DNA of 28,319 bases from a virus: IMG/VR virus record IMGVR_UViG_3300025701_000041, positions 1 to 28,319 of that record. The stretch is one strand, 5' to 3'. The translations under genes were made by a program, and so were the position numbers. Position 1 is the stretch's first letter. The number at the start of each line of letters is the position of its first letter. The notes below the pieces were generated by a model. It was given only the letters and a program-made list of their open reading frames with translations. It had not been told where the DNA came from and searched no databases. Of this stretch, positions 3,414-28,319 are shown piece by piece.

Positions 3414-5744
3414 ATGCCAACTATTACTGCTTCTGCTTCAATAACATTTACTGATGTAAGTGATGCTGTTGGTTATGAATATATCTACTCAAGAACAGTC
3501 GCGTCTATAACTGATGCGACTGATTTCCTACCTTCTCAACTACCTAGTAATAACTGGACTTATGGCAATCCTTCTCCTAACGGAAGTGTTGATGGTATTT
3601 CTTGGACTACTTTTGGTGAGAATGTCAGTCAAACCTTTCCTATTCTTTGGGAATGTCGACGTGTTATAGTCGGTAATCCATATGATGGCGAGAGTATTCC
3701 TGCTCAATGGGAAGATCCTACTATCGTTGGTATTGCTGGTATAGACGGTGTTGTTGGTCCTACTGGTCCTCGTGGCGCTACTGGCCCACGCGGTTCTCAA
3801 GGTATCCAAGGGTTAACTGGTATTCAGGGTACTATCGGACCACGTGGTCTTACGGGTACGCAAGGTCCTATCGGGACTCAAGGACCAAAAGGTTCTCAAG
3901 GTATCCAAGGTCCAACTGGACAACAAGGTCCAACTGGTATTCAAGGACCTGATGGTACTCAGGGTATCCAAGGTGTCACTGGTATTCAGGGACCGACTGG
4001 CCCACAGGGTACACAAGGTCCAAAAGGTACACAGGGAACCCAAGGTCCACAAGGAACTCAAGGTCCACAGGGTACACAGGGTCCGAAGGGAACACAGGGT
4101 ATTCAAGGACCAACTGGTATTCAAGGTCCAACTGGACCACAAGGCACACAGGGCATTCAGGGTACACAAGGTATTCAAGGCGTAACTGGTCCTCGTGGTA
4201 CTCAGGGTCCAAAAGGCACACAGGGTATTCAAGGAACTCAAGGTACACAGGGTCCTCAAGGAACACAAGGTCCTCGTGGTACTCAGGGTCCAAAAGGCAC
4301 ACAGGGTATTCAAGGTCCAACTGGACCACAGGGTACCCAAGGACCAAAAGGTACTCAAGGTATTCAAGGAACGCAAGGTCTAACTGGACCTAGAGGAACG
4401 CAAGGTCCAAAAGGTACTCAAGGTCCAAAAGGTACTCAAGGTATTCAAGGTCCTAGTGGTAGTGACGGTCCTACAGGTATCCAAGGACCTACAGGTATCC
4501 AAGGTCCATCTGGTCCACGGGGTACTAGAGGTGCTACTGGTCCTAGAGGAACTCGAGGTATTGAAGGTCCTGTTGGTACAATTGGTCCACAGGGTACAAT
4601 TGGTCCATCGGGTCCACAAGGACCACAGGGTACTAGAGGCCCGCAGGGAACGCAAGGTCCAAAAGGAACAATTGGCCCGCAAGGTAGTCAAGGTCCTAGA
4701 GGTTCTGTAGGTCCACAAGGAACACAAGGTCCACGTGGTGTAACTGGTATCCAAGGTTCCCAAGGTCCTAGAGGTTCTGTAGGTCCGTCTGGTCCTAGAG
4801 GTGTTACTGGTATTCAAGGTTCTCAAGGTCCCAAAGGTACGATTGGACCACAAGGACCATCTGGCCCTAGAGGTGTTACTGGTTCTCAAGGTCCTCAAGG
4901 TACACAGGGACCTAGAGGGACACAGGGACCGCGCGGTGTTACTGGTATTCAAGGTTCTCAGGGACCACAAGGTACTAGAGGTCCGCAGGGTACGCAAGGT
5001 CCTAGAGGTGTTACTGGTATTCAAGGTTCTCAAGGTCCACAAGGTACGCAAGGACCTAGAGGAACGCAAGGGCCACGTGGTGTAACTGGTATTCAAGGAA
5101 CTCAAGGTACACAGGGACCTAGAGGTACACAAGGTCCACAGGGTACTATTGGTCCACGTGGTAGTCAAGGTACAAGAGGTCCACAGGGTACACAGGGTCC
5201 ACAGGGTACTATTGGTCCACGCGGTAGTCAAGGTCCTAGAGGAACGCAAGGTCTACGAGGTCCATCTGGTCCACGTGGTATAACTGGTTTACAAGGAACA
5301 CAGGGACCACGTGGTTCTCAGGGTCCGAGAGGTTCTGTTGGTGATCGAGGTTCTAAAGGGCCTACTGGTACAATTGGTCCATCTGGTCCAGCTGGTTCTG
5401 CTGGTAATGCGATCGTATTTGATACTGACGCCACTATCAATGCTGATACTGGTTCAAGTTCTAAATCAGATCTGATCCGTCAGTTTAGAGGAGAAGACAT
5501 TCTACTCAAAAATGATACATATTGGCATATACAAACTGGTCGAGTGTTCCAATATCAAGGTGCTGATTACTCTGGTACGGGTGATAAGACATTCACTGAA
5601 GTTACTACTAACTCGGGTGGTATATTGAATCTGAATGGTCTTAGAAATACTGCTGCTTCTGGTGCTAGGATTGAGTTCCAAGGAGATAATATTCAAATAT
5701 ATGACGCTGGGGGTAAACTCAGGGTTAAATTGGGTAATTTATAA
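3414..5744 (+). CDS. Collagen-like tail fibre protein
   Basis: A 776-residue protein; AAAGGA precedes the ATG. Three parts are visible. Residues 1-105 form a beta-rich head ending in a WECRRVIVG...IPAQWEDP segment that resembles the Ig-like modules of the two upstream genes. Residues about 106-665 are an essentially unbroken Gly-X-Y tract of about 186 triplets, dominated by [15 protein letters not shown] and GPK. Residues 666-776 form a globular tail ending in [17 protein letters not shown]. The Gly-X-Y tract should form a collagen-type triple helix, giving a long thin trimeric shaft. Gln, Thr, Lys and Arg, rather than Pro, fill most Y positions, as is usual in prokaryotic and phage collagens that lack 4-hydroxyproline. 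A terminator follows. Confidence 0.93.
3729..5405 (+). repeat. Gly-X-Y collagen-like coding repeat
   Basis: This 1.7-kb tract is built from 9-base units (GGN NNN NNN) and larger near-repeats such as those encoding [14 protein letters not shown]. Synonymous variation (GGT/GGA/GGC, CAA/CAG, CGT/AGA) is high, so the DNA copies are diverged while the protein pattern is kept. Long false open frames in other frames and on the other strand are artefacts of this periodicity. Confidence 0.95.
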
Positions 5745-5756
5745 CTGACTTAGAAA

Positions 5757-5782
5757 GGCGCTATATATTAGCGTCTTTTTTT
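5757..5782 (+). terminator. Rho-independent terminator after the collagen-like gene
   Basis: The arms GGCGCTA and TAGCGTC pair over seven positions (one G-T wobble) around a TATAT loop, followed immediately by seven T. It begins 12 bases after the stop of the collagen-like gene. Only AAGG and a short leader separate it from the next gene, so that gene depends on readthrough or on a promoter I cannot see. Confidence 0.88.
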
Positions 5783-5795
5783 ATAAGGTTATATC

Positions 5796-7067
5796 ATGAG
5801 TAAACGCACACCATTAATGTATCACGATGGCGACAACTGGAAGTTCTTTGAGTCATATGTCAAAGAGAATATGAACGTTGGTATATTCGTCGGTGGTGGA
5901 CCATCTTTAAATAAAATCGATATTTCAAAACTAACTGGTGCTGGTAAAACGGTAGTCGGTGTCAACACAACTTATCCTAAAGTGAGGCCTGATATATGGG
6001 TCGGTATGGACGAACCTTCATGTTACAACGAACACGTCTATAAAGAATCTTTTATGAAAATCACAAGAGGTGGTTTACAGAATCGTATTCTGGACGGACA
6101 TAAATTATCAGAATACCCGTTTGTTTATTTTGGAAACATGTTAGATTCTAAAGATCCAATGGACGTCTTCACTTGTTCGGAACCAGAAAGTGAAAACATT
6201 ATATGGGAGAAAAATGTATTCTCTACTACAATGAATATAATGTTACATATGGGGTTCAAAAAGATATACCTTGCTGGCGTAGACTTTGAGGTTTCTGAGG
6301 GTAGTTACTTTGATGATAGGGAAATGACGAAAGACCAAGATGCTTGGAATATGAATCTATACAATCACCTATATCATTATCTTGATTGGTTCGCTAAAGA
6401 ATGTAAGAAACGTGGTGTTGAAGTATACTCTATTAGTCCCGATTCTAAAATAAACGATTTAGTACCTTATATAGATTTAGATGAACTTAACGATTCTATA
6501 CATTTACCACCTAAAACTCTATTACACCACTCATCCGCATTCTTCACAGATCACTTAGTATCTGATGATTATATGAATACGTTGAAAAAAGAACATAGTA
6601 CAGAACATTGGGGTACTAGTGCTGGGTCTATGGTAGATACGTTACATGATTGGTTGAAACGTAATAATGCGAAAGAAGTTATCGACTATGGATGTGGTTC
6701 AAGTAGTTTTAAAAGCAACTTACCTGATGATGCTGACTATACCGTATATGAGTATGATCCAGGCATACCAGGAAAGGAAGGATTACATACACCTAAAGAC
6801 TTCTTAATATCAATTGACGTACTCGAACACGTAGAACCAGAACTGATAGATAATGTTATCCAACAAATCGCATCTAGTATAAAGGTACAAGGTTACTTAA
6901 CTATCGCGATGTATCCAGCTATGCGTATTCTACAAGACGGTAGAAACGCACACTTAATCGTAGAAGAAATGCCTTGGTGGGTAGAGAAACTATCAAAATA
7001 TCTAGATATTATTAGCATTAAAAAGACTAATGGTCAATTAGATGTCATAGCCGAACCTAAAAAGTGA
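5796..7067 (+). CDS. Bifunctional enzyme: DUF115/sialyltransferase-like domain fused to SAM methyltransferase
   Basis: A 423-residue cytoplasmic protein; AAGG eight bases upstream supports the ATG. The N-terminal half (about 1-220) is Rossmann-like: GIFVGGGPSLNK at residues 29-40, GVNTTYPKVRPDIWVGMDEP near 55-74 and KKIYLAGVDFE near 165-175. This pattern is seen in DUF115/Maf-type and bacterial sialyltransferase-like glycosyltransferases. The C-terminal part (about 265-423) is a class I SAM methyltransferase: EVIDYGCGSSSF near 292-303 is the glycine-rich SAM loop, and ISIDVLEHVEPE near 337-348 is the motif IV-like segment. The fusion lies directly behind a collagen-like fibre gene and in front of baseplate genes. 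It may therefore build or methylate a glycan on virion proteins. The donor and acceptor are unknown, and the N-terminal domain could instead bind another nucleotide-linked substrate. Confidence 0.82.
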   Translation: MSKRTPLMYHDGDNWKFFESYVKENMNVGIFVGGGPSLNKIDISKLTGAGKTVVGVNTTYPKVRPDIWVGMDEPSCYNEHVYKESFMKITRGGLQNRILDGHKLSEYPFVYFGNMLDSKDPMDVFTCSEPESENIIWEKNVFSTTMNIMLHMGFKKIYLAGVDFEVSEGSYFDDREMTKDQDAWNMNLYNHLYHYLDWFAKECKKRGVEVYSISPDSKINDLVPYIDLDELNDSIHLPPKTLLHHSSAFFTDHLVSDDYMNTLKKEHSTEHWGTSAGSMVDTLHDWLKRNNAKEVIDYGCGSSSFKSNLPDDADYTVYEYDPGIPGKEGLHTPKDFLISIDVLEHVEPELIDNVIQQIASSIKVQGYLTIAMYPAMRILQDGRNAHLIVEEMPWWVEKLSKYLDIISIKKTNGQLDVIAEPKK

Positions 7068-7073
7068 AATACT

Positions 7074-7116
7074 CCTGTTAAAACCAGTATAAATAACTTT
7101 ATATAATTTTAACAGG
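7074..7116 (+). promoter_or_regulatory. Inverted repeat enclosing the late promoter and covering the RBS of the gp8 gene
   Basis: CCTGTTAAAA (7074-7083) and TTTTAACAGG (7107-7116) are perfect 10-base complements with a 23-base loop. The right arm contains the AGG of the AGGA ribosome-binding site (7114-7117). The late-promoter box TATAAATA lies in the loop. Readthrough RNA would contain both arms and hide the RBS; RNA started at the late promoter would lack the left arm. Confidence 0.75.
7088..7095 (+). promoter_or_regulatory. T4-type late promoter for the baseplate operon
   Basis: An exact match to the T4 late -10 consensus TATAAATA, in the gap before the gp8-like gene. The expected start of transcription is about six to seven bases downstream (near 7101-7103), leaving a leader of about 26 bases. 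No sigma70 -35 element is present, as expected for sigma-gp55-type recognition. Confidence 0.8.
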
Positions 7117-7127
7117 AATATGTAATA

Positions 7128-8477
7128 ATGTCAGCGATTGTTAGACAGTCTATTAGTAAAGAGTTATCGAAACAGTTTCTCGATGATATACTAGGACAAG
7201 AGAACAACTATTATATTGGTATAGGTAAATCAGACGTCTTTAATATAGAAGACACTGTAATCGATCCTATTGATTCACTTCTTGAAGAACGTGAGTTTCG
7301 TCACAATCTACAGTCTATAAAGTCTGTTGAAGGTGCGACTTATGTGACTCGTAGATATAACTGGAACTCTGGTACCAAATACAAAGGTTGGACAGACAGC
7401 AGTGATTTACAACAAGATAGATTCTATGTGTTGAATAGCGCAAAGGAAGTTTATATTTGTTTAGAACAAGGTATGAGTCAAACTGGCGAAGTTAATGTGT
7501 CTACAGTAGAACCTAATTATGCGTTACACGCACCAAGAGATGTTGACAATCATGTTATGCACTGGGAACCGTTCACTACTGGAGACGGTTACACGTGGAA
7601 ATTCTTATATTCATTAACACCTGAAACAATCTTTCAATTCCTTTCATCGAATTATATTCCTGTACATATTCCTGAAAGTGATTTAGCGACTGGTGATGCG
7701 ATTGAAGATTTACAATTTGTCGTAAAACAAAATGCTGTTTCTGGTCAAGTACTTCGTTGTGAAATTATAGACAAAGGTTATGGATATTCTGAAGCACCTA
7801 TCGTTACAATTAAAGGTGACGGAACTGGCGCTACAGCAATCGCATATGTTACAAATGGTCACTTAACTAAAATAGAAATGACATCTTACGGTTCTGGTTA
7901 TACACACGCTACTGTAGAAATTACAGGTGACGGTGTGAATGCTGCTGTTCGTCCAATTGTTAGTCCTATTCAAGGTATTGGGTTTGATGCCGTTTCTGAT
8001 TTAAAAACAAGTTCTATATTACTTACCATTAAACCTGATGGTGAAGAAGACGGTACATTTATCGTAGAAAACGAATTTAGACAAATCGGTCTTATTAAAA
8101 ACCCATTGACTCCAGAAGGTGTTAAAACTACAGAAACTTCTTTGAAAGTTTTACCTAAGATGACATTAGTAGATTCTTCACCTTTCTCTTCGGGTAAACA
8201 TATCGTAGGTTCTCAGTCTGGCGCTATAGCATTCGTAGACGAATCATACGATAATATAGTTCACTTCCATCAAAACGAGAGTACTGGATTCGTAGATTTC
8301 ATTCAAGGTGAGGTTATTACTCAAACTGGTGTTGTCCTTACGGGTACGGTGTCTGAAGTGACTCGAACACAAAGTATAGATAGATTCACTGGTGATGTAT
8401 TATATATTGAAAATCGTCACAGAATAAGACGCGATGCCGAACAACAAGAAGACATAAAAGTTGTAATTACAATTTAG
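7128..8477 (+). CDS. 8: Baseplate wedge protein gp8 homologue
   Basis: A 449-residue protein beginning at the first ATG after the late promoter, with AGGA at 7114-7117. T4-like gp8 features are visible: an N-terminal region with NNYYIGIGKSDVF; an aromatic HWEPFTTGDGYTWKFLYSLTP segment (about 144-165), followed by PVHIPE; two repeated GYGYSEAPIVTIKGDGTGA-type beta-hairpin units near 233-275; and a late segment containing FRQIGLIKNP (about 318). In T4, gp8 dimerises and joins gp7, gp10 and gp6 in the wedge. T4 gp8 is 334 residues, so this homologue is longer, as is common in marine relatives; the extra length includes the GxGY hairpin units. It is the first gene of the operon that includes the giant DUF4815 gene. 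Confidence 0.85.
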   Translation: MSAIVRQSISKELSKQFLDDILGQENNYYIGIGKSDVFNIEDTVIDPIDSLLEEREFRHNLQSIKSVEGATYVTRRYNWNSGTKYKGWTDSSDLQQDRFYVLNSAKEVYICLEQGMSQTGEVNVSTVEPNYALHAPRDVDNHVMHWEPFTTGDGYTWKFLYSLTPETIFQFLSSNYIPVHIPESDLATGDAIEDLQFVVKQNAVSGQVLRCEIIDKGYGYSEAPIVTIKGDGTGATAIAYVTNGHLTKIEMTSYGSGYTHATVEITGDGVNAAVRPIVSPIQGIGFDAVSDLKTSSILLTIKPDGEEDGTFIVENEFRQIGLIKNPLTPEGVKTTETSLKVLPKMTLVDSSPFSSGKHIVGSQSGAIAFVDESYDNIVHFHQNESTGFVDFIQGEVITQTGVVLTGTVSEVTRTQSIDRFTGDVLYIENRHRIRRDAEQQEDIKVVITI

Positions 8478-15277: not shown

Positions 15278-15733
15278 ATGGCAGATTATACTTTATCTTT
15301 TTCAAAAACTTTGAGTTTTGCTGGTAATTATACCAATTCTTTTGCTGGCAACTACATAGGCACGTACACAAAAACACGTACACCTACAAGACAATCAGCA
15401 TTTATCAAGGACTATACTGTAACTAGAGTATCGGCAAATGATATAACGCGCAGCAGTTCATATATCGGTTATTATACTAGTGCATTCACCACTAACGTAG
15501 AAAAGAACTCTACTAGAGATAATATTCAAGAAACTAACCGAGTTTTTTACACGGAAACATATGTTAGAAACGGTACGTCTGTTCGAAGTTTCACTAACAC
15601 AGTTACAAAATATTTCACGGGAAGTACTATAGTATATTATGGTACATCTTTTATTAGAACTTCTACGTACACTAGAGAAGAAGCGAGTATAACATTTACT
15701 TCTCCTACTTATAGTGGAACGATTGAACAATAG
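15278..15733 (+). CDS. Small aromatic/Ser/Thr tetrad-repeat protein
   Basis: A 151-residue protein; AAGGA overlaps the previous stop. Nearly the whole sequence is low complexity. It reads as diverged four-residue units with an aromatic residue or Arg in the first position, for example FAGN YTNS FAGN YIGT YTKT RTPT. It is the most degenerate of three neighbouring proteins with this pattern, the others being at 15743 and 17935. It lacks a separate globular domain, Cys and signal peptide. Its place in the tail operon suggests a virion component or a partner of the giant tetrad protein. I do not recognise a named family. Confidence 0.75.
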   Translation: MADYTLSFSKTLSFAGNYTNSFAGNYIGTYTKTRTPTRQSAFIKDYTVTRVSANDITRSSSYIGYYTSAFTTNVEKNSTRDNIQETNRVFYTETYVRNGTSVRSFTNTVTKYFTGSTIVYYGTSFIRTSTYTREEASITFTSPTYSGTIEQ

Positions 15734-15742
15734 AGATTAATT

Positions 15743-16492
15743 ATGCCCGCTAATTATTTCGTAGGGACTGTTTCACGGTCTAGTACATTAACCTTTGTTG
15801 GTACAGGTTCGTCCGCTGTATTTACTAGAAGTCGTGCTGCTGATTTTACTACTAGTAGATATTCGTCTTACACTAGAAAGATTTATCGTAATGCGATTGA
15901 AGGAAGTAGTGCCATATTCACCACGACATATGTCGGTGATTATATTGGCGACTTTACTAAGTATCGATACAGCGCATATGCGGGCAATTATAGTCGTGAC
16001 TTTATTGGTGACTACAGTCGTAGTTTTACGAGAAGTCGAGCGAGTTCTTTTAGTCGAGACTTTATTGGTAATTACACGCGCTCAGTAGATAAAACCTTTA
16101 TAGGTGATTATTCTCGTGAATTCATCGGTGAATCCACAAGAGTATCTTCGTACACCCGTACGCTTTCTGGTGGTTCGGGTGAAGGACCTACATATACTGC
16201 GACAGCATCTGATGCTGATTATGGTTTAATTGTTTATGGACCTGATGGTGTAACTGAAATAATTAACCCACAAACTAGGGTTATAAATATTGCGTACTAT
16301 GCTAATGTATCTGTATCAGGTAATTCATCAACAACTGTCACTATTGATGATGTTGGTGATCCTACTAAAGTTATGGTGTCATTTGTAACTCCTCAAAGAG
16401 GCATGACTTTATCTGCGTCAGGTAATACATTAACAGTAACCAATACATTTAGTTACAATAGAAATCCAACAATTCTAGCAATAAGGTTATAA
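15743..16492 (+). CDS. Chimeric tail protein: tetrad repeats plus YGLIV-type domain
   Basis: A 249-residue protein with two clear parts. Residues about 27-140 are tetrapeptide units such as YVGD YIGD FTKY RYSA YAGN YSRD FIGD, the same pattern as in the 1,837-residue protein. After a Gly/Ser linker (about 141-150), residues 153-249 form a beta-rich domain starting DYGLIVYGPDG, which resembles the beginning of the next gene (MSYGLIVKSFDAGG). The YGL[IR]V opening is seen in small phage tail proteins. The protein seems to join the repeat shaft to an ordinary tail domain. This suggests that the repeats are displayed on the virion rather than being an intracellular product. Confidence 0.8.
   Translation: MPANYFVGTVSRSSTLTFVGTGSSAVFTRSRAADFTTSRYSSYTRKIYRNAIEGSSAIFTTTYVGDYIGDFTKYRYSAYAGNYSRDFIGDYSRSFTRSRASSFSRDFIGNYTRSVDKTFIGDYSREFIGESTRVSSYTRTLSGGSGEGPTYTATASDADYGLIVYGPDGVTEIINPQTRVINIAYYANVSVSGNSSTTVTIDDVGDPTKVMVSFVTPQRGMTLSASGNTLTVTNTFSYNRNPTILAIRL
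15821..16162 (+). repeat. Tetrapeptide (12-base) coding repeat, short copy
   Basis: About 28 consecutive four-residue units of form [Y/F/R]-small-[R/G/S]-polar are visible. They keep phase through most of the tract and are more diverged than in the giant gene. Lys occurs here, unlike in the giant gene. Confidence 0.85.
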
Positions 16493-17934: not shown

Positions 17935-20900
17935 GTGTCAGCATCGAGTATCCCTTTAAAAATATACAATTCGAATGGTGACCTCAAGGAATTCACTCCG
18001 CTAGAAGAAAATTATCTGGCATATGCAGTGGGACAAGCAATGTTGAACCCTACAGACGTAGGTGCTCTATCATTGACTTCAGGTAATCCAGTCGGTTCAT
18101 ATGTAGATTCATTCTTCAATGAAGCGTCAGGTACTCACCCTGCATCTCAGATTACTTCTGGAACCACAACCACTACCTTAAAGCAAGTGGTTGGTCCAGC
18201 ATCTGAAAGCGGTATAAACATTCCTGTAGGTTATTACGCCGAAGGAGCAAGTCCAGGTTTCTACGAAATGGTAGACGCAGACTTGACTAACTTATGTAAT
18301 CGTGTTCTTGGTAATATGGTCGAGAATGACTATATTGGTACGTACAAACTATCTTCATCATCTCCTGGTTCAGATTATGCCATTTTCATCGAAAATGTAT
18401 TTACTGATACTCGTGGTGATGGAAACGCTACCAATTATCATATCTGGATCCGTACAGCAATGTCTGTTATCGGTCCAACTCGTCCAGTCAAAATTCGTTA
18501 CGACAACGGTAGTTTTGACGGTTTCCAAGAAATGACGGACGCTGAGATCCAAGATGTATTGGGTCAACGCATTAAAACTTTACGTGCCACAGCAGGCAAC
18601 ATCGGGTCATATCAATTACGGTCAAGTGTACAAGGTGCACCGACTGACGCTGGTGTTTGGAAAGCTGTAGGTACTGCGTTTAATACGCAAAGAACTACTT
18701 CGCAAATTGACTACACTCGTACACGTAACTCATCTTACGTTCGCGCACGTGTATCAACTTACGCACGTACACGTAGTTCATCATTCTCACGTGTTTCTAC
18801 ACGTACAACACATCAAGATTTCATTGGTGATTACGTTGGTAATTACACACGTGATTTTGCGGGCAATTATTCACGCGGTTTCGCTGGAGAATATGTCGGT
18901 GACTTCATTGGTAATTATATAAGAACTCGTGTATCTTCTTATACAAGAGATCGTCTACAAGCATTTACTGGTACATTCAGTGGTGTTTATTCTCGCGCTC
19001 GTGTATCAGTTTATACTCGTAATCGTATCACTGACTTTACTGGTTACTTTACACGCACACGTCCTTCGAGTTATGCTCGTGGTCGAGTATCTGCTTACGC
19101 TGGTACATATGCGCGTAATCGTGTTTCTGTTTATACAGGTACATATGCTCGTAACCGTATTTCAACATATACAGGTACTTACTCACGCGCTCGCGTATCT
19201 ACATACACTGGTAACTATGCCCGTGATTTCGTAGGTAACTATGCTCGTTCGTTTGTTGGTAACTATACTGGTGAGTTCTCACGTACTCGTAACAGTACTT
19301 TCACAGGTACTTACTCACGTACACGTGTTTCAACTTACGTCGGTAATTATGCTCGAGATTTCGTAGGTAACTATTCACGAAACTTTGCTGGTAACTACAC
19401 TGGTGAATTTACACGTACACGTAACAGCACCTTTGCTGGTACATACGGTAGAACTCGTGTATCTGCTTATACTGGTACTTACGCAAGAGACTTCGTAGGA
19501 AACTACGCTCGTGGGTTTACAGGTAATTACTCGCGCAACTTTACCCGTGGTCGTGTATCAACTTACACTGGTACTTACGCAAGAACTCGTGTATCTTCTT
19601 ACTCAGGTAACTACGCAAGAGACTTCGTAGGAAACTACGCTCGTGGATTCGTAGGTAATTATTCTCGTAACTTTACTCGTTCAAGAGTTTCTGCTTACGC
19701 TGGTACTTACTCAAGAACTCGTGTATCTGCTTATGCTGGTACATATTCGCGTAACCGTATTTCAACTTACTCGGGTACTTACTCAAGAACTCGTGTATCT
19801 GCTTATGCTGCGGATTATACTCGCGTTCGCGCTACCAACTTCACACGCGATCGTGTAACTAACTTTGCTGGTATCTATACTCGTGCTCGTGTATCAACTT
19901 ATGCTCGTACTCGTATTACAGATTTTGCTGGTAACTTCATTGGCAACTATTCTCGTGGGTTTGTAGGTGACTATGCTCGTGGGTTCGTTGGTAACTACGC
20001 TCGTGGATTTGCTGGCAATTTCGTCGGTAACTATGCCCGTACTTCTACACGTACTTCAGCAAGAACTCGTTACAGTGCTTATGCTCGTACACGTGCTGCT
20101 TCTTACGTAGGAAACTACTCAAGAAACTTTGCTGGCGAATATACAGGTAACTATTCTGGTGCTTATGCGACAACATTTACTGGCGACTTCGCAGGTAACT
20201 ATGCTCGTGGATATGCTGGTGAATATACAGGTAACTATTCTGGTGCTTATGCCCGTGATTTCGTCGGTGACTTCGCTGGTAATTATGCCCGTGCTTTCGC
20301 AGGTGACTTCGCTGGTAATTATGTTGGCAACTACGCTCGCGACTTCGTAGGTGACTTTGTTGGTAATTATGCTCGTGGATATGCTGGTGACTTCGCAGGC
20401 GATTTCGTAGGTAACTACGCAAGAACTTCTACACGTAATTCTATACGTAACCGTTACAGTGCTTATGCTCGTACATCAACGCGTACACGTTATAGTGCTT
20501 ATGCTCGTACAAGTACACGTACTTCTACGCGTACATTAACATATACTCGTGCGTTATATTACGCAGGAGACTTTGTTGGTAACTATGCGAGAACTCGCAT
20601 AACAGACTATACAACTACACCAACGTATGCTCGTGATCGTGCTTACTATCCAACATATACACGTGATCGTACTGTAGCATATGCTATAAGTCCTTCGTAT
20701 ACTCGTGGTCGTGTTTACTATCCTAACTATACTCGTACTCGTACTGCTTCTTATGTCGGTGACTATGCCCGTACTGCTTATTACACTGGTAACTATGCTC
20801 GTACATTGTATTACACTGGTAACTATGCCCGTACATATTACTACACTGGTAACTATGCCCGTACATATTACTATACTGGTAACTATGCTCGTACATTAAC

Positions 20901-23448
20901 ATACACTGGTAACTTTGTTGGTGATTACGCTCGTACTGGTTATTACACTGGTAACTATGCTCGTACTGGTTACTATACTGGTAATTTCGTTCGACATAAT
21001 GTAGGTTATTCTCGTACACTATACTTTACTACTCCTCAAGGTTGGGGTGGCGATCCTGGTGTGCCGAGTACGGTAACTAATTACTTTGTCGGTACTGGAG
21101 ATTTCACGCGTACTTCTACACGTACTTTAGCGTATGCCCGTACTTCTACGCGTACATTAGTATACACTAGAACTCGTGCTACTAACTATACAGTAAGTCC
21201 AGCGTATGCTCGTGACCGTGCTTACTATCCAACGTATGCTCGTGACCGTGCTTATTATCCGACGTATACTCGTGACCGTGCTTACTATCCAACGTATGCT
21301 CGTGACCGTGCTTACTATCCGACGTATACTCGTACTCGTGCTGCTTCTTATGTCGGTGACTACGCAAGAACATCGTACTATACTGGTAACTATGCTCGCA
21401 CGTTATATTACGTAGGTAACTTCGTTGGTAACTATGCTCGTACATTGTATTACACTGGTAACTATGCTCGTACATTAGTATATGCTGGAAACTTTGTTGG
21501 CGAATACGCTCGTACATCTACACGTACACGTACTGCTACTGGTTACTACACGCGTACTGGTTACTATGCTGGCGACTTTGTTGGTGATTACGCTCGTGGA
21601 TATGCTGGTGACTTTGTTGGTAACTACGCAAGAAACTTTGTTGGTGACTTCGCTGGTAACTTTGTTGGTGAATACGCTCGTACATCTACACGTACTTCTA
21701 CAAGAACTCGTTACAGCGCTTATGCTCGTACTCGTGTAACTAACTATGTTGGTGACTTTACACGTACATCTACTCGTACAAGTACTCGTACTCGTTACAG
21801 TGCTTATGCTCGTACTCGTGTAACTAACTATGTCGGTAACTTCGTTGGTGCTTATACTCGCGTATCTAACCGTACACGTTACAGTGCTTATACTCGTACA
21901 CGTATTACAGATTATGTTGGTGACTTCGTTGGCGCTTATACTCGCGTATCTAACCGCACACGTGTTTCTGCTTATGCCCGTACACGTAACGCGTCTTACG
22001 TTGGTAATTACGCTCGTGCTTTCGCAGGTAACTACGCTGGTGACTTTGTTGGTGAATACACTCGTACTTCAGCAAGAACTCGTTACAGTGCTTATGCTCG
22101 TACACGAATTTCTACTTACGCTCGTACTCGTAACTCAGCATATGCTCGTGATCGTGTAACTACGTTTACTGGTGATTTTGTTGGTAACTACGCAAGAACG
22201 TTTACTGGAAATTACGCACGTAACTTCGCTGGTAACTTTATTGGTGATTATGTCGGTAACTTTACAGGTAATTACGTCGGTAACTATAACCGTGGATTCG
22301 TAGGTGAATATACGGGTACATATTCTAGAGGTTTCTCTGGTCAATATGCTGGTACTTACTCTCGCGGTTTCGTAGGTGAATATGCTGGTACTTACACTCG
22401 TGCCTTTGCGGGCAACTATGCTGGCGCGTTTACACGTACACGTGTTTCTGCTTATACTCGTTCACGTCCAAGTTCATATGCTGGTACTTACACTCGCGGT
22501 TTCGTAGGTGAATACACTGGTACATATGCGACTACGTTTACTGGTAACTATGCTAACTCGTATAGTCGTAATCGTATCTCGACATATTCTAGAACTCGTC
22601 CAAGTTCGTACTCAGGTACTTACTCGCGTAACTTCGCTGGCGAATATACTGGAACATATGCTAGTGATTATATCGGTAACTACTCGCGCGACTTCACTCG
22701 TTCGCGTAACAGTGCTTATGCTCGTACACGCGTATCTACATACGCTGGTAACTATGCTCGCGACTTTATCGGTGAATATACTGGAGTTTATGCTCGCGAT
22801 TACGTAGGTAATTACTCACGTAACTTCTTACGTACACGTTTTGAGTATTACTCACGTACACGTGGTTCAGCATATGCTGGCACATATACTCGTGCGTTTG
22901 CTGGTGAATATACTGGTACATACAACCGTGGTTTCGCTGGTGAATATACTGGTACATACAACCGTGGGTTTGCTGGTGAATATACTGGTACATACAACAG
23001 AACGTTTACTGGTGATTATGCTCGCGATTACGTAGGAAACTACGCTCGTGACTTTGCTGGCGACTTCGCTGGTAATTACTCAAGAACGTTTGCTGGCGAT
23101 TACACAGGTAACTATCAACGTGATTTCGTTGGTAACTTCGTTGGTAACTATACTCGCGACTTTATCGGTGAATATACACGTAACTCGGTAAACACGTTCT
23201 CAAGAGTTCGCGTATCTGCTTACTCGCGTTTACGTACAAGTGCTTACACAGATAACTATGCGCGTACACGTGTATCAAGTTATGCTGGTAACTACACTGG
23301 CGACTATGTCGGTGAGTTTGTAGGTAACTATGCTCGCGATTACGTAGGTAACTACTCACGTGCGTTTATCGGTAACTATGTTGGTTTGACAATCAATCCA
23401 ACGTTCTCAATTGTTGAGACTTACACGTTATATGTAAGAGTTGCTTAA
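17935..23448 (+). CDS. Giant tetrapeptide-repeat virion/fibre protein (1,837 aa)
   Basis: The start is a GTG with AGAGAG (17921-17926) eight bases upstream; no better ATG lies before the globular domain. Residues 1-259 form an ordinary domain, opening LKIYNSNGDLKEFTPLEENYLAYAVG, with an internal duplication (GFYEMVDADL and GFQEMTDAEI). Residues 260-1817 are about 389 four-residue units: position 1 Tyr/Phe/Arg, position 2 Ala/Val/Thr/Ser/Ile, position 3 Gly/Arg/Ser, position 4 Asn/Asp/Thr/Ala/Gly. Examples are YARD, FVGN, YSRN, RVSA and YAGT. The tract contains no Lys, Cys or Met that I can see and is very rich in Arg and Tyr. One non-repeat insert occurs near 1018-1057 (contains GWGGDPG). The last 20 residues are non-repeat. 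It is a single-gene transcription unit. It is probably an extended fibre; no catalytic motif is present. Confidence 0.9.
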   Translation: MSASSIPLKIYNSNGDLKEFTPLEENYLAYAVGQAMLNPTDVGALSLTSGNPVGSYVDSFFNEASGTHPASQITSGTTTTTLKQVVGPASESGINIPVGYYAEGASPGFYEMVDADLTNLCNRVLGNMVENDYIGTYKLSSSSPGSDYAIFIENVFTDTRGDGNATNYHIWIRTAMSVIGPTRPVKIRYDNGSFDGFQEMTDAEIQDVLGQRIKTLRATAGNIGSYQLRSSVQGAPTDAGVWKAVGTAFNTQRTTSQIDYTRTRNSSYVRARVSTYARTRSSSFSRVSTRTTHQDFIGDYVGNYTRDFAGNYSRGFAGEYVGDFIGNYIRTRVSSYTRDRLQAFTGTFSGVYSRARVSVYTRNRITDFTGYFTRTRPSSYARGRVSAYAGTYARNRVSVYTGTYARNRISTYTGTYSRARVSTYTGNYARDFVGNYARSFVGNYTGEFSRTRNSTFTGTYSRTRVSTYVGNYARDFVGNYSRNFAGNYTGEFTRTRNSTFAGTYGRTRVSAYTGTYARDFVGNYARGFTGNYSRNFTRGRVSTYTGTYARTRVSSYSGNYARDFVGNYARGFVGNYSRNFTRSRVSAYAGTYSRTRVSAYAGTYSRNRISTYSGTYSRTRVSAYAADYTRVRATNFTRDRVTNFAGIYTRARVSTYARTRITDFAGNFIGNYSRGFVGDYARGFVGNYARGFAGNFVGNYARTSTRTSARTRYSAYARTRAASYVGNYSRNFAGEYTGNYSGAYATTFTGDFAGNYARGYAGEYTGNYSGAYARDFVGDFAGNYARAFAGDFAGNYVGNYARDFVGDFVGNYARGYAGDFAGDFVGNYARTSTRNSIRNRYSAYARTSTRTRYSAYARTSTRTSTRTLTYTRALYYAGDFVGNYARTRITDYTTTPTYARDRAYYPTYTRDRTVAYAISPSYTRGRVYYPNYTRTRTASYVGDYARTAYYTGNYARTLYYTGNYARTYYYTGNYARTYYYTGNYARTLTYTGNFVGDYARTGYYTGNYARTGYYTGNFVRHNVGYSRTLYFTTPQGWGGDPGVPSTVTNYFVGTGDFTRTSTRTLAYARTSTRTLVYTRTRATNYTVSPAYARDRAYYPTYARDRAYYPTYTRDRAYYPTYARDRAYYPTYTRTRAASYVGDYARTSYYTGNYARTLYYVGNFVGNYARTLYYTGNYARTLVYAGNFVGEYARTSTRTRTATGYYTRTGYYAGDFVGDYARGYAGDFVGNYARNFVGDFAGNFVGEYARTSTRTSTRTRYSAYARTRVTNYVGDFTRTSTRTSTRTRYSAYARTRVTNYVGNFVGAYTRVSNRTRYSAYTRTRITDYVGDFVGAYTRVSNRTRVSAYARTRNASYVGNYARAFAGNYAGDFVGEYTRTSARTRYSAYARTRISTYARTRNSAYARDRVTTFTGDFVGNYARTFTGNYARNFAGNFIGDYVGNFTGNYVGNYNRGFVGEYTGTYSRGFSGQYAGTYSRGFVGEYAGTYTRAFAGNYAGAFTRTRVSAYTRSRPSSYAGTYTRGFVGEYTGTYATTFTGNYANSYSRNRISTYSRTRPSSYSGTYSRNFAGEYTGTYASDYIGNYSRDFTRSRNSAYARTRVSTYAGNYARDFIGEYTGVYARDYVGNYSRNFLRTRFEYYSRTRGSAYAGTYTRAFAGEYTGTYNRGFAGEYTGTYNRGFAGEYTGTYNRTFTGDYARDYVGNYARDFAGDFAGNYSRTFAGDYTGNYQRDFVGNFVGNYTRDFIGEYTRNSVNTFSRVRVSAYSRLRTSAYTDNYARTRVSSYAGNYTGDYVGEFVGNYARDYVGNYSRAFIGNYVGLTINPTFSIVETYTLYVRVA
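20779..20898 (+). repeat. Four tandem 30-base repeats encoding YYTGNYART-x
   Basis: Four consecutive 30-base units encode YYTGNYART followed by Leu or Tyr (the fourth ends in Leu). Related copies follow after a short break near 20939-20990. Differences are mostly silent (GCT/GCC, TAT/TAC), indicating recent tandem duplication inside the tetrad tract. Confidence 0.88.
21205..21324 (+). repeat. Four tandem 30-base repeats encoding Y-x-RDRAYYPT
   Basis: Four nearly identical 30-base units encode YARDRAYYPT or YTRDRAYYPT. A diverged copy lies upstream near 20625-20660. The near identity suggests recent expansion or gene conversion, and this is a likely site of copy-number change. Confidence 0.9.
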
Positions 23449-25447: not shown

Positions 25448-25469
25448 AGAAGAAACTTAGTTAAATAGT

Positions 25470-25539
25470 CATCTTCTCTAGTTTATAACTCGTATAAATA
25501 TATTAAATTATATTGTAACGGGAATTAATTAGGAAGATG
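25470..25539 (+). promoter_or_regulatory. Inverted repeat spanning a late promoter and covering RBS and start codon
   Basis: CATCTTC (25470-25476) and GAAGATG (25533-25539) are perfect seven-base complements, extendable by a G-T pair on either side. The right arm includes part of AGGA and the whole ATG of the next gene. The late promoter at 25493 lies between the arms. The loop is about 56 bases, so the hairpin is weaker than the one at 7074-7116. Confidence 0.45.
25493..25500 (+). promoter_or_regulatory. T4-type late promoter for the downstream fibre operon
   Basis: An exact TATAAATA in the 89-bp gap between the oxygenase-like gene and the 118-aa virion protein. The expected leader is about 30 bases and carries AGGA six to eight bases before the ATG. 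Confidence 0.8.
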
Positions 25540-25893
25540 GCTACTTACGAAGATTTCTCAATTTCACAAGGCTCAGATGTTGCCTTTCAATTAGAGTTGA
25601 CCGAAGCTGATGGTTCAACTAAAAATCTTACAGGTCACACAGTAGAAGCGAAAATGAAAAAATCATTTAACGCTGATGTTGATAACACCATTGTATTCGA
25701 CGCTATTGTCTCGCAACCAGCGACAGACGGTATCGTAGTCCTTGCCCTTACAAACGAACAAACTGATGAATTATCTACTCGCGGTAGATACGTATACGAT
25801 GTCGAGTTAGCGTACGAAGATAGTGACGGTAACGTAATTGTTGAACGTATTTTAGAAGGTAAGATTAAAGTCACACCTTCTGTAACAAGGTAA
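25537..25893 (+). CDS. Conserved small Ig-like virion protein
   Basis: A 118-residue protein, first gene of the last late operon. It opens with FSISQGSDVAFQLELTEADGSTKNLTG, then TVEAKMKKS; near the end come RGRYVYDVELAYEDSDGN and ILEGKIKVTPSVTR. This beta-sandwich pattern occurs in small proteins of many marine and other T4-like phages, next to fibre genes, and resembles baseplate upper-protein (BppU-type) N-termini. It is likely a fibre-attachment or virion accessory protein. Its stop is four bases before the next ATG. Confidence 0.8.
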   Translation: MATYEDFSISQGSDVAFQLELTEADGSTKNLTGHTVEAKMKKSFNADVDNTIVFDAIVSQPATDGIVVLALTNEQTDELSTRGRYVYDVELAYEDSDGNVIVERILEGKIKVTPSVTR

Positions 25894-27450: not shown

Positions 27451-27458
27451 TATAAATA
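27451..27458 (+). promoter_or_regulatory. T4-type late promoter for the last fibre gene
   Basis: An exact TATAAATA nine bases after the stop of the preceding fibre gene. The leader to the next gene would be about 76-94 bases, longer than the 26-34 bases of the other late promoters here, and it holds several inverted repeats. Confidence 0.72.
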
Positions 27459-27468
27459 ATCTTGAATA

Positions 27469-27536
27469 CTTTATATAAAGTTGAGATTATGTATAATATA
27501 TGATTATACGATATTAGATATCCCCTTATATAAGGG
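27469..27536 (+). promoter_or_regulatory. Structured leader with three inverted repeats and a possible sigma70 -10
   Basis: CTTTATATAAAG (27469-27480) is a palindrome; GTATAAT/ATTATAC (27491-27509) is a perfect seven-base hairpin with a five-base loop; CCCTTATATAAGGG (27523-27536) is a 14-base palindrome containing the AAGGG before the ATG at 27541. TATAAT at 27492-27497 is a perfect sigma70 -10, with only a weak -35 (TTTATA, 16-base spacing). Confidence 0.5.
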
Positions 27537-27540
27537 TTGA

Positions 27541-28319
27541 ATGAAGAGGAAGCCAACATTGGCACGTAATGTAGATATTAGGTTAAGACGTTCTTCCGTA
27601 TCAGGAAACGTCCCTACCATAGAACAGTTAAACCTCGGTGAGTTGGCAGTCAACACCGCTGATGGTAAACTGTATCTTAAAAAGAAATTTGATGGTATCG
27701 AACAAGTCATTGAAGTGGGCGCTGATGCTCGATCTGGTCTTGTCAGTACATTCAATACATATATCTACACGTCAGATGGTACGTTACAGAACGTAACTGG
27801 CGCAGACGACTATGGCAACTTCCTTTCATACGACCTTTCTTCACCTCGAAGAATCCAAGTATATCTGAATGGTGTCTTGTTACACCAAGGCATCGACTAC
27901 ACTGCTGCTGATGGCGAGACTATTAGTTTTGTTTATCCTATTGACGAAGGTCAAGTCGTTCAGATTGCTGCCTATAACTCTGATGGTGCGTCTATCGACG
28001 CAGACTTGATACTTGATGACGGTTTTTCATTTACAGTCGGTACAGACGAAGAGACGAAGTTATACCACAACGGTTCTAACACGATTTTAAAACATATGGC
28101 GTATGGTGACAATACGTTCAAGATGATGTGGCGAGATTCGGACCGTTTGGTTATGGGTGAAGATGGTGTTGCGATTACTGGACATCTTACAATCAACGGC
28201 AATGAAGTCGTTACTGATTCTGATGTACTTGTTTTAATAAACGGTGAAGTTACTCAACAATACGTTGAAGACCTTAATATCGCAGCGAGTTCTGTATCTT
28301 ATATTCCCGATAGTGCTGG
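27541..28319 (+). CDS. Long tail fibre N-terminal part (3' truncated)
   Basis: The frame is open to the window end (259 codons, no stop). Two starts are possible: ATG at 27541, with AAGGG only four bases upstream, and TTG at 27559, with AGAGGA eight bases upstream. With the TTG the protein begins MARNVDIRLRRSSVSGNVPT, which parallels MASIIRIKRSGVQGNPSI of the previous gene; that favours the TTG. LNLGELAVNTADGKLYLKK follows, the usual fibre head. Near residues 100-145 IQVYLNGVLLHQGIDY and SFVYPIDEGQVVQIAAYN form a beta module common in marine phage fibres. It is probably a long tail-fibre subunit. Confidence 0.82.
   Translation, partial: MKRKPTLARNVDIRLRRSSVSGNVPTIEQLNLGELAVNTADGKLYLKKKFDGIEQVIEVGADARSGLVSTFNTYIYTSDGTLQNVTGADDYGNFLSYDLSSPRRIQVYLNGVLLHQGIDYTAADGETISFVYPIDEGQVVQIAAYNSDGASIDADLILDDGFSFTVGTDEETKLYHNGSNTILKHMAYGDNTFKMMWRDSDRLVMGEDGVAITGHLTINGNEVVTDSDVLVLINGEVTQQYVEDLNIAASSVSYIPDSA

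Follow-up and report, generated by a model that had tools for sequence, protein, structure and literature searches.

Candidate hairpin-enclosed late promoters at a gp8-like baseplate gene and a tail-fibre-assembly-like gene of a marine T4-like phage

Control by RNA structures that hide the ribosome-binding site (RBS) has been described for genes e, soc, 49, 25 and 26 of phage T4, i.e. late genes that include two baseplate genes (25 and 26), and for several homing endonuclease genes (PMC3014915 and PMC2988022). The four precedents named in an earlier note on the DNA analysed here (e, soc, 49 and I-TevI) are documented in PMC3014915. In that article the late TATAAATA promoter of gene e is assigned to the 5' strand of the structure, with the left arm on one side of it and the RBS on the other. 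The long e RNA is predicted to hide the Shine-Dalgarno sequence (SD), and the late RNA is devoid of the left arm. The same anatomy and logic apply to the hairpins of T4 I-TevI, I-TevII, I-TevIII and segB and of Aeh1 mobE, which are homing endonuclease genes inserted in early or middle units (PMC2988022). In marine T4-like phages, cyanophages included, late genes are preceded by the promoter motif NATAAATA (PMC2984593), and the words 'hairpin' and 'ribosome' occur nowhere in that review.

In the present study, two candidate cases of the e-type order were predicted from the sequence of a marine Kyanoviridae-like phage (Table 1; "the window" denotes the whole analysed stretch of 28,319 nt). Both involve genes for virion structure or assembly, unlike gene e, and neither is a homing endonuclease gene inserted in an early or middle unit. 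At gp8 the promoter is situated mainly in the loop, and not in the 5' strand as in e. Neither gp8 nor a tail-fibre-assembly-like gene is among those named in the available parts of PMC3014915 and PMC2988022.

Table 1. Positions in the window of the elements of the two hairpin-enclosed promoters
Feature	Position	Strand	Remarks
Stop codon of methyltransferase-like gene upstream of gp8	7065-7067		
gp8 hairpin, left arm	7069-7083	+	perfect part TCCTGTTAAAA (7073-7083); directly after upstream stop
TATAAATA, T4-type late promoter -10 element, in gp8 hairpin loop	7088-7095	+	motif
gp8 hairpin, right arm	7107-7121	+	perfect part TTTTAACAGGA (7107-7117); covers SD
AGGA, SD of gp8	7114-7117	+	within right arm
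gp8-like baseplate wedge gene, first of late unit	7128-8477	+	ATG at 7128; PHROG 438, Pfam
Second hairpin, left arm (TAGTCATCTTC, one unpaired T, CTAGTT)	25466-25483	+	
TATAAATA late promoter inside second hairpin	25493-25500	+	motif
Second hairpin, right arm (AATTAGGAAGATGGCTA)	25527-25543	+	pairs with AGGA SD and AUG
Gene 25537, 118 aa, 'L-shaped tail fiber protein assembly'-like	25537-25893	+	PHROG 1084 / PHROG 3304

The gp8 leader contains an inverted repeat that the earlier note had described as perfect over 10 bases (7074-7083/7107-7116). The repeat is real and perfect, but its length was understated: 11 bp can be read directly from the sequence, and in a repeat search it reached 15 nt (93%), one position being mismatched. 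The promoter motif inside the repeat, the overlap of the right arm with the AGGA of gp8 and the gp8-like nature of the gene, all noted previously, were confirmed, the last by matches of the product to PHROG 438 ('baseplate wedge subunit', E 5e-78) and to Pfam Phage-Gp8. Inverted repeats that are perfect over 11 bp or more and enclose a loop of 5-40 occur twice in the window; in 60 dinucleotide shuffles of it they averaged 0.3 and never exceeded 1. The 55-nt segment 7068-7122 folds with -15.7 kcal/mol (z -6.1), a value reached in 0/200 shuffles.

A second hairpin-enclosed late promoter, which constitutes a stronger case than gp8, was detected in front of gene 25537 (25466-25543). The surrounding segment (25450-25560) folds with -33.8 kcal/mol (z -6.7). 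Elsewhere, the window encodes a protein of 776 aa that contains a long G-x-y repeat of collagen type (3414-5744), with a hairpin and T-run resembling a terminator behind it (approximately 5756-5782), as well as an 1837-aa protein (17935-23448) composed largely of the short repeats 'GNYARxFVG' / 'ARTRVSAY', which recur in two small proteins (15278-15733 and 15743-16492). The gene occupying the same position as that of the 1837-aa protein in the relative C48C1 encodes 3347 aa.

The number of TATAAATA copies in the window, which is short, is not significant (5 found, 3.6 expected). In the relatives C48C1 and G001 the motif is enriched and strand-biased (22/3 and 25/3 copies on the two strands, respectively, with about 3-4 per strand expected from shuffling). 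A late sigma factor and a regulator of late promoters are annotated in C48C1; the corresponding region is not covered by the window, which is a fragment of 28 kb. T4 spacing places TATAAATA at -13 to -6 relative to the start site, and the putative start sites would be located near 7101 (gp8) and 25506 (gene 25537).

Folding with and without the left arm, suggested in the earlier note as a check, came out as proposed there. The pairing probability of the gp8 SD is 0.97-0.99 on read-through RNA versus 0.44-0.46 on late RNA starting at about 7101, so the SD would be freed only partly (about half open), and for the gp8 AUG no clear increase in pairing is predicted in the read-through form. For gene 25537, predicted pairing of both the SD and the AUG is 1.00 on read-through RNA and falls to 0.19 (SD) and 0.34 (AUG) on the short late RNA.

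The cost of opening the SD and AUG was then computed for the long and the late RNA at every TATAAATA site of the window, two long relatives, two shorter contigs and T4, and the 50 nt 5' of each promoter were shuffled 200 times. Both window sites (7088 and 25493) gave z 5.4 with 0/200 shuffles, and in T4 the positive controls, e (67011) and I-TevII (45631), gave z 4.1, also with 0/200. T4 soc (15603) was missed (125/200), and therefore a gene that fails this test may still have a hairpin. The gain in opening energy amounts to 11.8 kcal/mol at gp8 and 19.6 at gene 25537 (11.6 and 16.8 kcal/mol with the shorter 3' end of the control), both above the maximum of 10.4 kcal/mol observed for negative controls, i.e. 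178 C48C1 genes with no TATAAATA nearby, cut at a matching distance. Thus, by upstream shuffles and control genes alike, the predicted hairpin depends on its specific left arm beyond chance at both window sites.

In relatives, further late promoters with a hairpin over the RBS were encountered at L078 (C48C1 80999; 0/200 shuffles) and L082 (G002 10234; 9/200). At L087 (T4 116450 / 116454), where the late promoters of genes 26 and 51 overlap and diverge, a single inverted repeat is common to both and would conceal the RBS on either strand (7/200 shuffles for each). In the window region 27451-27560 a late promoter is followed by the perfect palindromes ACTTTATATAAAGT and CCCTTATATAAGGG ahead of the next start, and no RBS sequestration is predicted there.

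Analysis of about 39 distinct gp8 leaders revealed that the late promoter is nearly universal. The hairpin was found in only four of them (the window, L100, which equals L003, L101 and L103); the remaining leaders keep the promoter and lack the hairpin. In the nearest relative, L100/L003 (gp8 67% identical), a 13-bp hairpin surrounds TATAAATA (upstream shuffles: z 4.1, 1/200; second run z 3.2, 3/200). The hairpin of L103 is significant (0/200) and that of L101 is not (20/200). For covariation of the arms, another check put forward in the earlier note, the evidence at gp8 is thin and consists of one two-arm change: between the window and L100 a left-arm G and its partner right-arm C were gained or lost together. 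A single change of state on the gp8 tree is enough to account for the four carriers, though support is weak (64/83). A scan of IMG/VR with the gp8 stem pattern returned 29 contigs, among which only the known relative had a late promoter in the loop; the stem sequence is thus not a shared motif.

The genes upstream of gp8 differ among the carriers (methyltransferase in the window, glycosyltransferase in L100, a structural-looking protein in L101/L103), which indicates that the hairpin goes with gp8 and not with its upstream neighbour. That it follows the type of upstream gene was considered and rejected, as there are three different upstream genes and the same genes occur elsewhere with no hairpin. 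The gp8 hairpin appears, from these comparisons, to be restricted to one small lineage and to have been kept while the upstream gene changed. The slot ahead of the gp8 promoter (5796-7067 in the window; L100-L178) is a site of turnover, holding methyltransferase, glycosyltransferase and other accessory or structural genes, and the promoter stays on the gp8 side.

Support from relatives seems thinner at gp8 than at gene 25537. In the gene 25537 family, 68 of the 70 distinct leaders carry an exact TATAAATA at 32-68 nt upstream of the start, and 22 of the 70 passed the hairpin test (a gain of at least 4 kcal/mol and at most 2 of 100 shuffles). The stems comprise several unrelated sequences, e.g. 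CCTCAGATTGT/ACAATCTGAGG in L180, CCCTAAG/CTTAGGG in L184, L195 and C48C1, and CCAGTTTC/GAAACTGG in L186 and L190. The CCAGTTTC/GAAACTGG group was aligned manually together with the sequence of the window itself, giving a subset of 11 members in which 92.6% of cells pair, as against at most 62% in slid controls, and five of the 11 pairs have changed on both sides; since the alignment was made in the hairpin register, these counts lean towards pairing, against which the shuffles and slides are the guard. MAFFT with RNAalifold found no common structure in this subset, because the right arms were misaligned. The cultured cyanophages and pelagiphages checked have a gene 25537 homologue with no clear hairpin, and in the Methylophilales phages Melnitz-1 and Melnitz-3 a candidate hairpin around TATAAATA at the homologue, predicted to pair both SD and AUG, is not significant by shuffling. 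The comparisons are strong evidence for selection on start-region pairing in a part of this family.

We consider it probable, as the earlier note proposed for gp8, that the hairpins act as a T4-type temporal lock on translation at gp8 and gene 25537. RNA entering from upstream would carry both arms, fold and hide the gp8 SD, and at gene 25537 it would hide the AUG as well. Once the late sigma factor is active, transcription would start in the loop, some 13 nt beyond the point where TATAAATA begins; because of this start position the late RNA would lack the left arm, leaving the ribosome site available. With late RNA open and read-through RNA closed, translation of the unit downstream of 7128 would depend on RNA from its own late promoter, not on read-through RNA. 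It is from anatomy and prediction that we infer the lock, together with read-through RNA and translational repression. The claim for gp8 has two limits, i.e. the restricted distribution of the hairpin and the lack of an identified source of read-through. Sigma-70-like sites near gp8 and gene 25537 are no commoner than expected by chance, so that no early promoter feeding read-through was identified, and a search for conserved early promoters before accessory genes gave no clear result.

A possible, though rather less likely, explanation is that the hairpin serves insulation and not timing, silencing read-through of any age, including late RNA from more distant promoters, so that the amount of protein from the gp8 unit would be set only by its own promoter. 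L101 and L103 keep the hairpin although their upstream gene is structural and presumably late, and it is hence not obvious why early RNA would have to be blocked there. The anatomy would be identical, so all of the structural results fit equally; the two readings differ in purpose and not in mechanism. The T4 precedents, however, have been explained by early or middle read-through (available parts of PMC3014915 and PMC2988022).

Translational coupling is improbable. A ribosome terminating on the upstream gene would overlap the left arm and open the hairpin, gp8 being translated only then; this would fit the distance of 2-6 nt between the upstream stop and the left arm in the window, and the situation in L003, where the left arm lies within the upstream reading frame, whose stop overlaps TATAAATA. 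However, the stop upstream of gene 25537 (25447) is placed about 18 nt ahead of the left arm, the upstream gene varies among relatives retaining the gp8 hairpin, and the hairpin would re-form as soon as the ribosome was released.

It is very unlikely that the gp8 hairpin arose by chance, with the right arm conserved as a promoter-to-RBS spacer and the left arm matching it accidentally: its absence from most gp8 relatives would agree with this, but the shuffling results for the window site and L103, the two-arm change in the nearest relative and the second case within the same 28-kb window argue against it. Equally remote is a role of the repeat as a DNA-level element (operator, cruciform) or transcription terminator, since, although a perfect 11-bp inverted repeat does flank the promoter, neither arm is followed by a T-run, the terminator scan did not return the gp8 repeat, and at gene 25537 the stems vary across relatives yet pairing with the start region is kept, which fits an RNA structure and not a protein-binding sequence. 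The reading as an intrinsic terminator (GC-rich stem plus T-run) was rejected for want of the T-run.

The mechanism of the proposed temporal lock is already known from T4, to which gp8 and gene 25537 would add predicted cases. As judged from the open literature searched (earlier descriptions elsewhere are possible), the novelty lies in the genes concerned, in the group of phages, in the comparative evidence from gene 25537 and in stem turnover. The several unrelated stems serving the gene 25537 family are an instance of such turnover around a fixed promoter. Whether, in marine T4-like phages more generally, the RBS-hiding hairpin is a repeatedly evolved and fast-changing module, in which the promoter stays fixed and unrelated stems arise and are replaced, we regard as evenly balanced.

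If the lock is real, a form of control known from a few T4 genes would extend to abundant phages of the ocean, with comparative support at one gene, and the upstream-shuffle test would provide a means of finding such switches with no need for RNA data. Within the gene 25537 family the same promoter occurs naturally both with the hairpin and without it, which would allow one to ask directly what makes a second lock necessary for some late genes.
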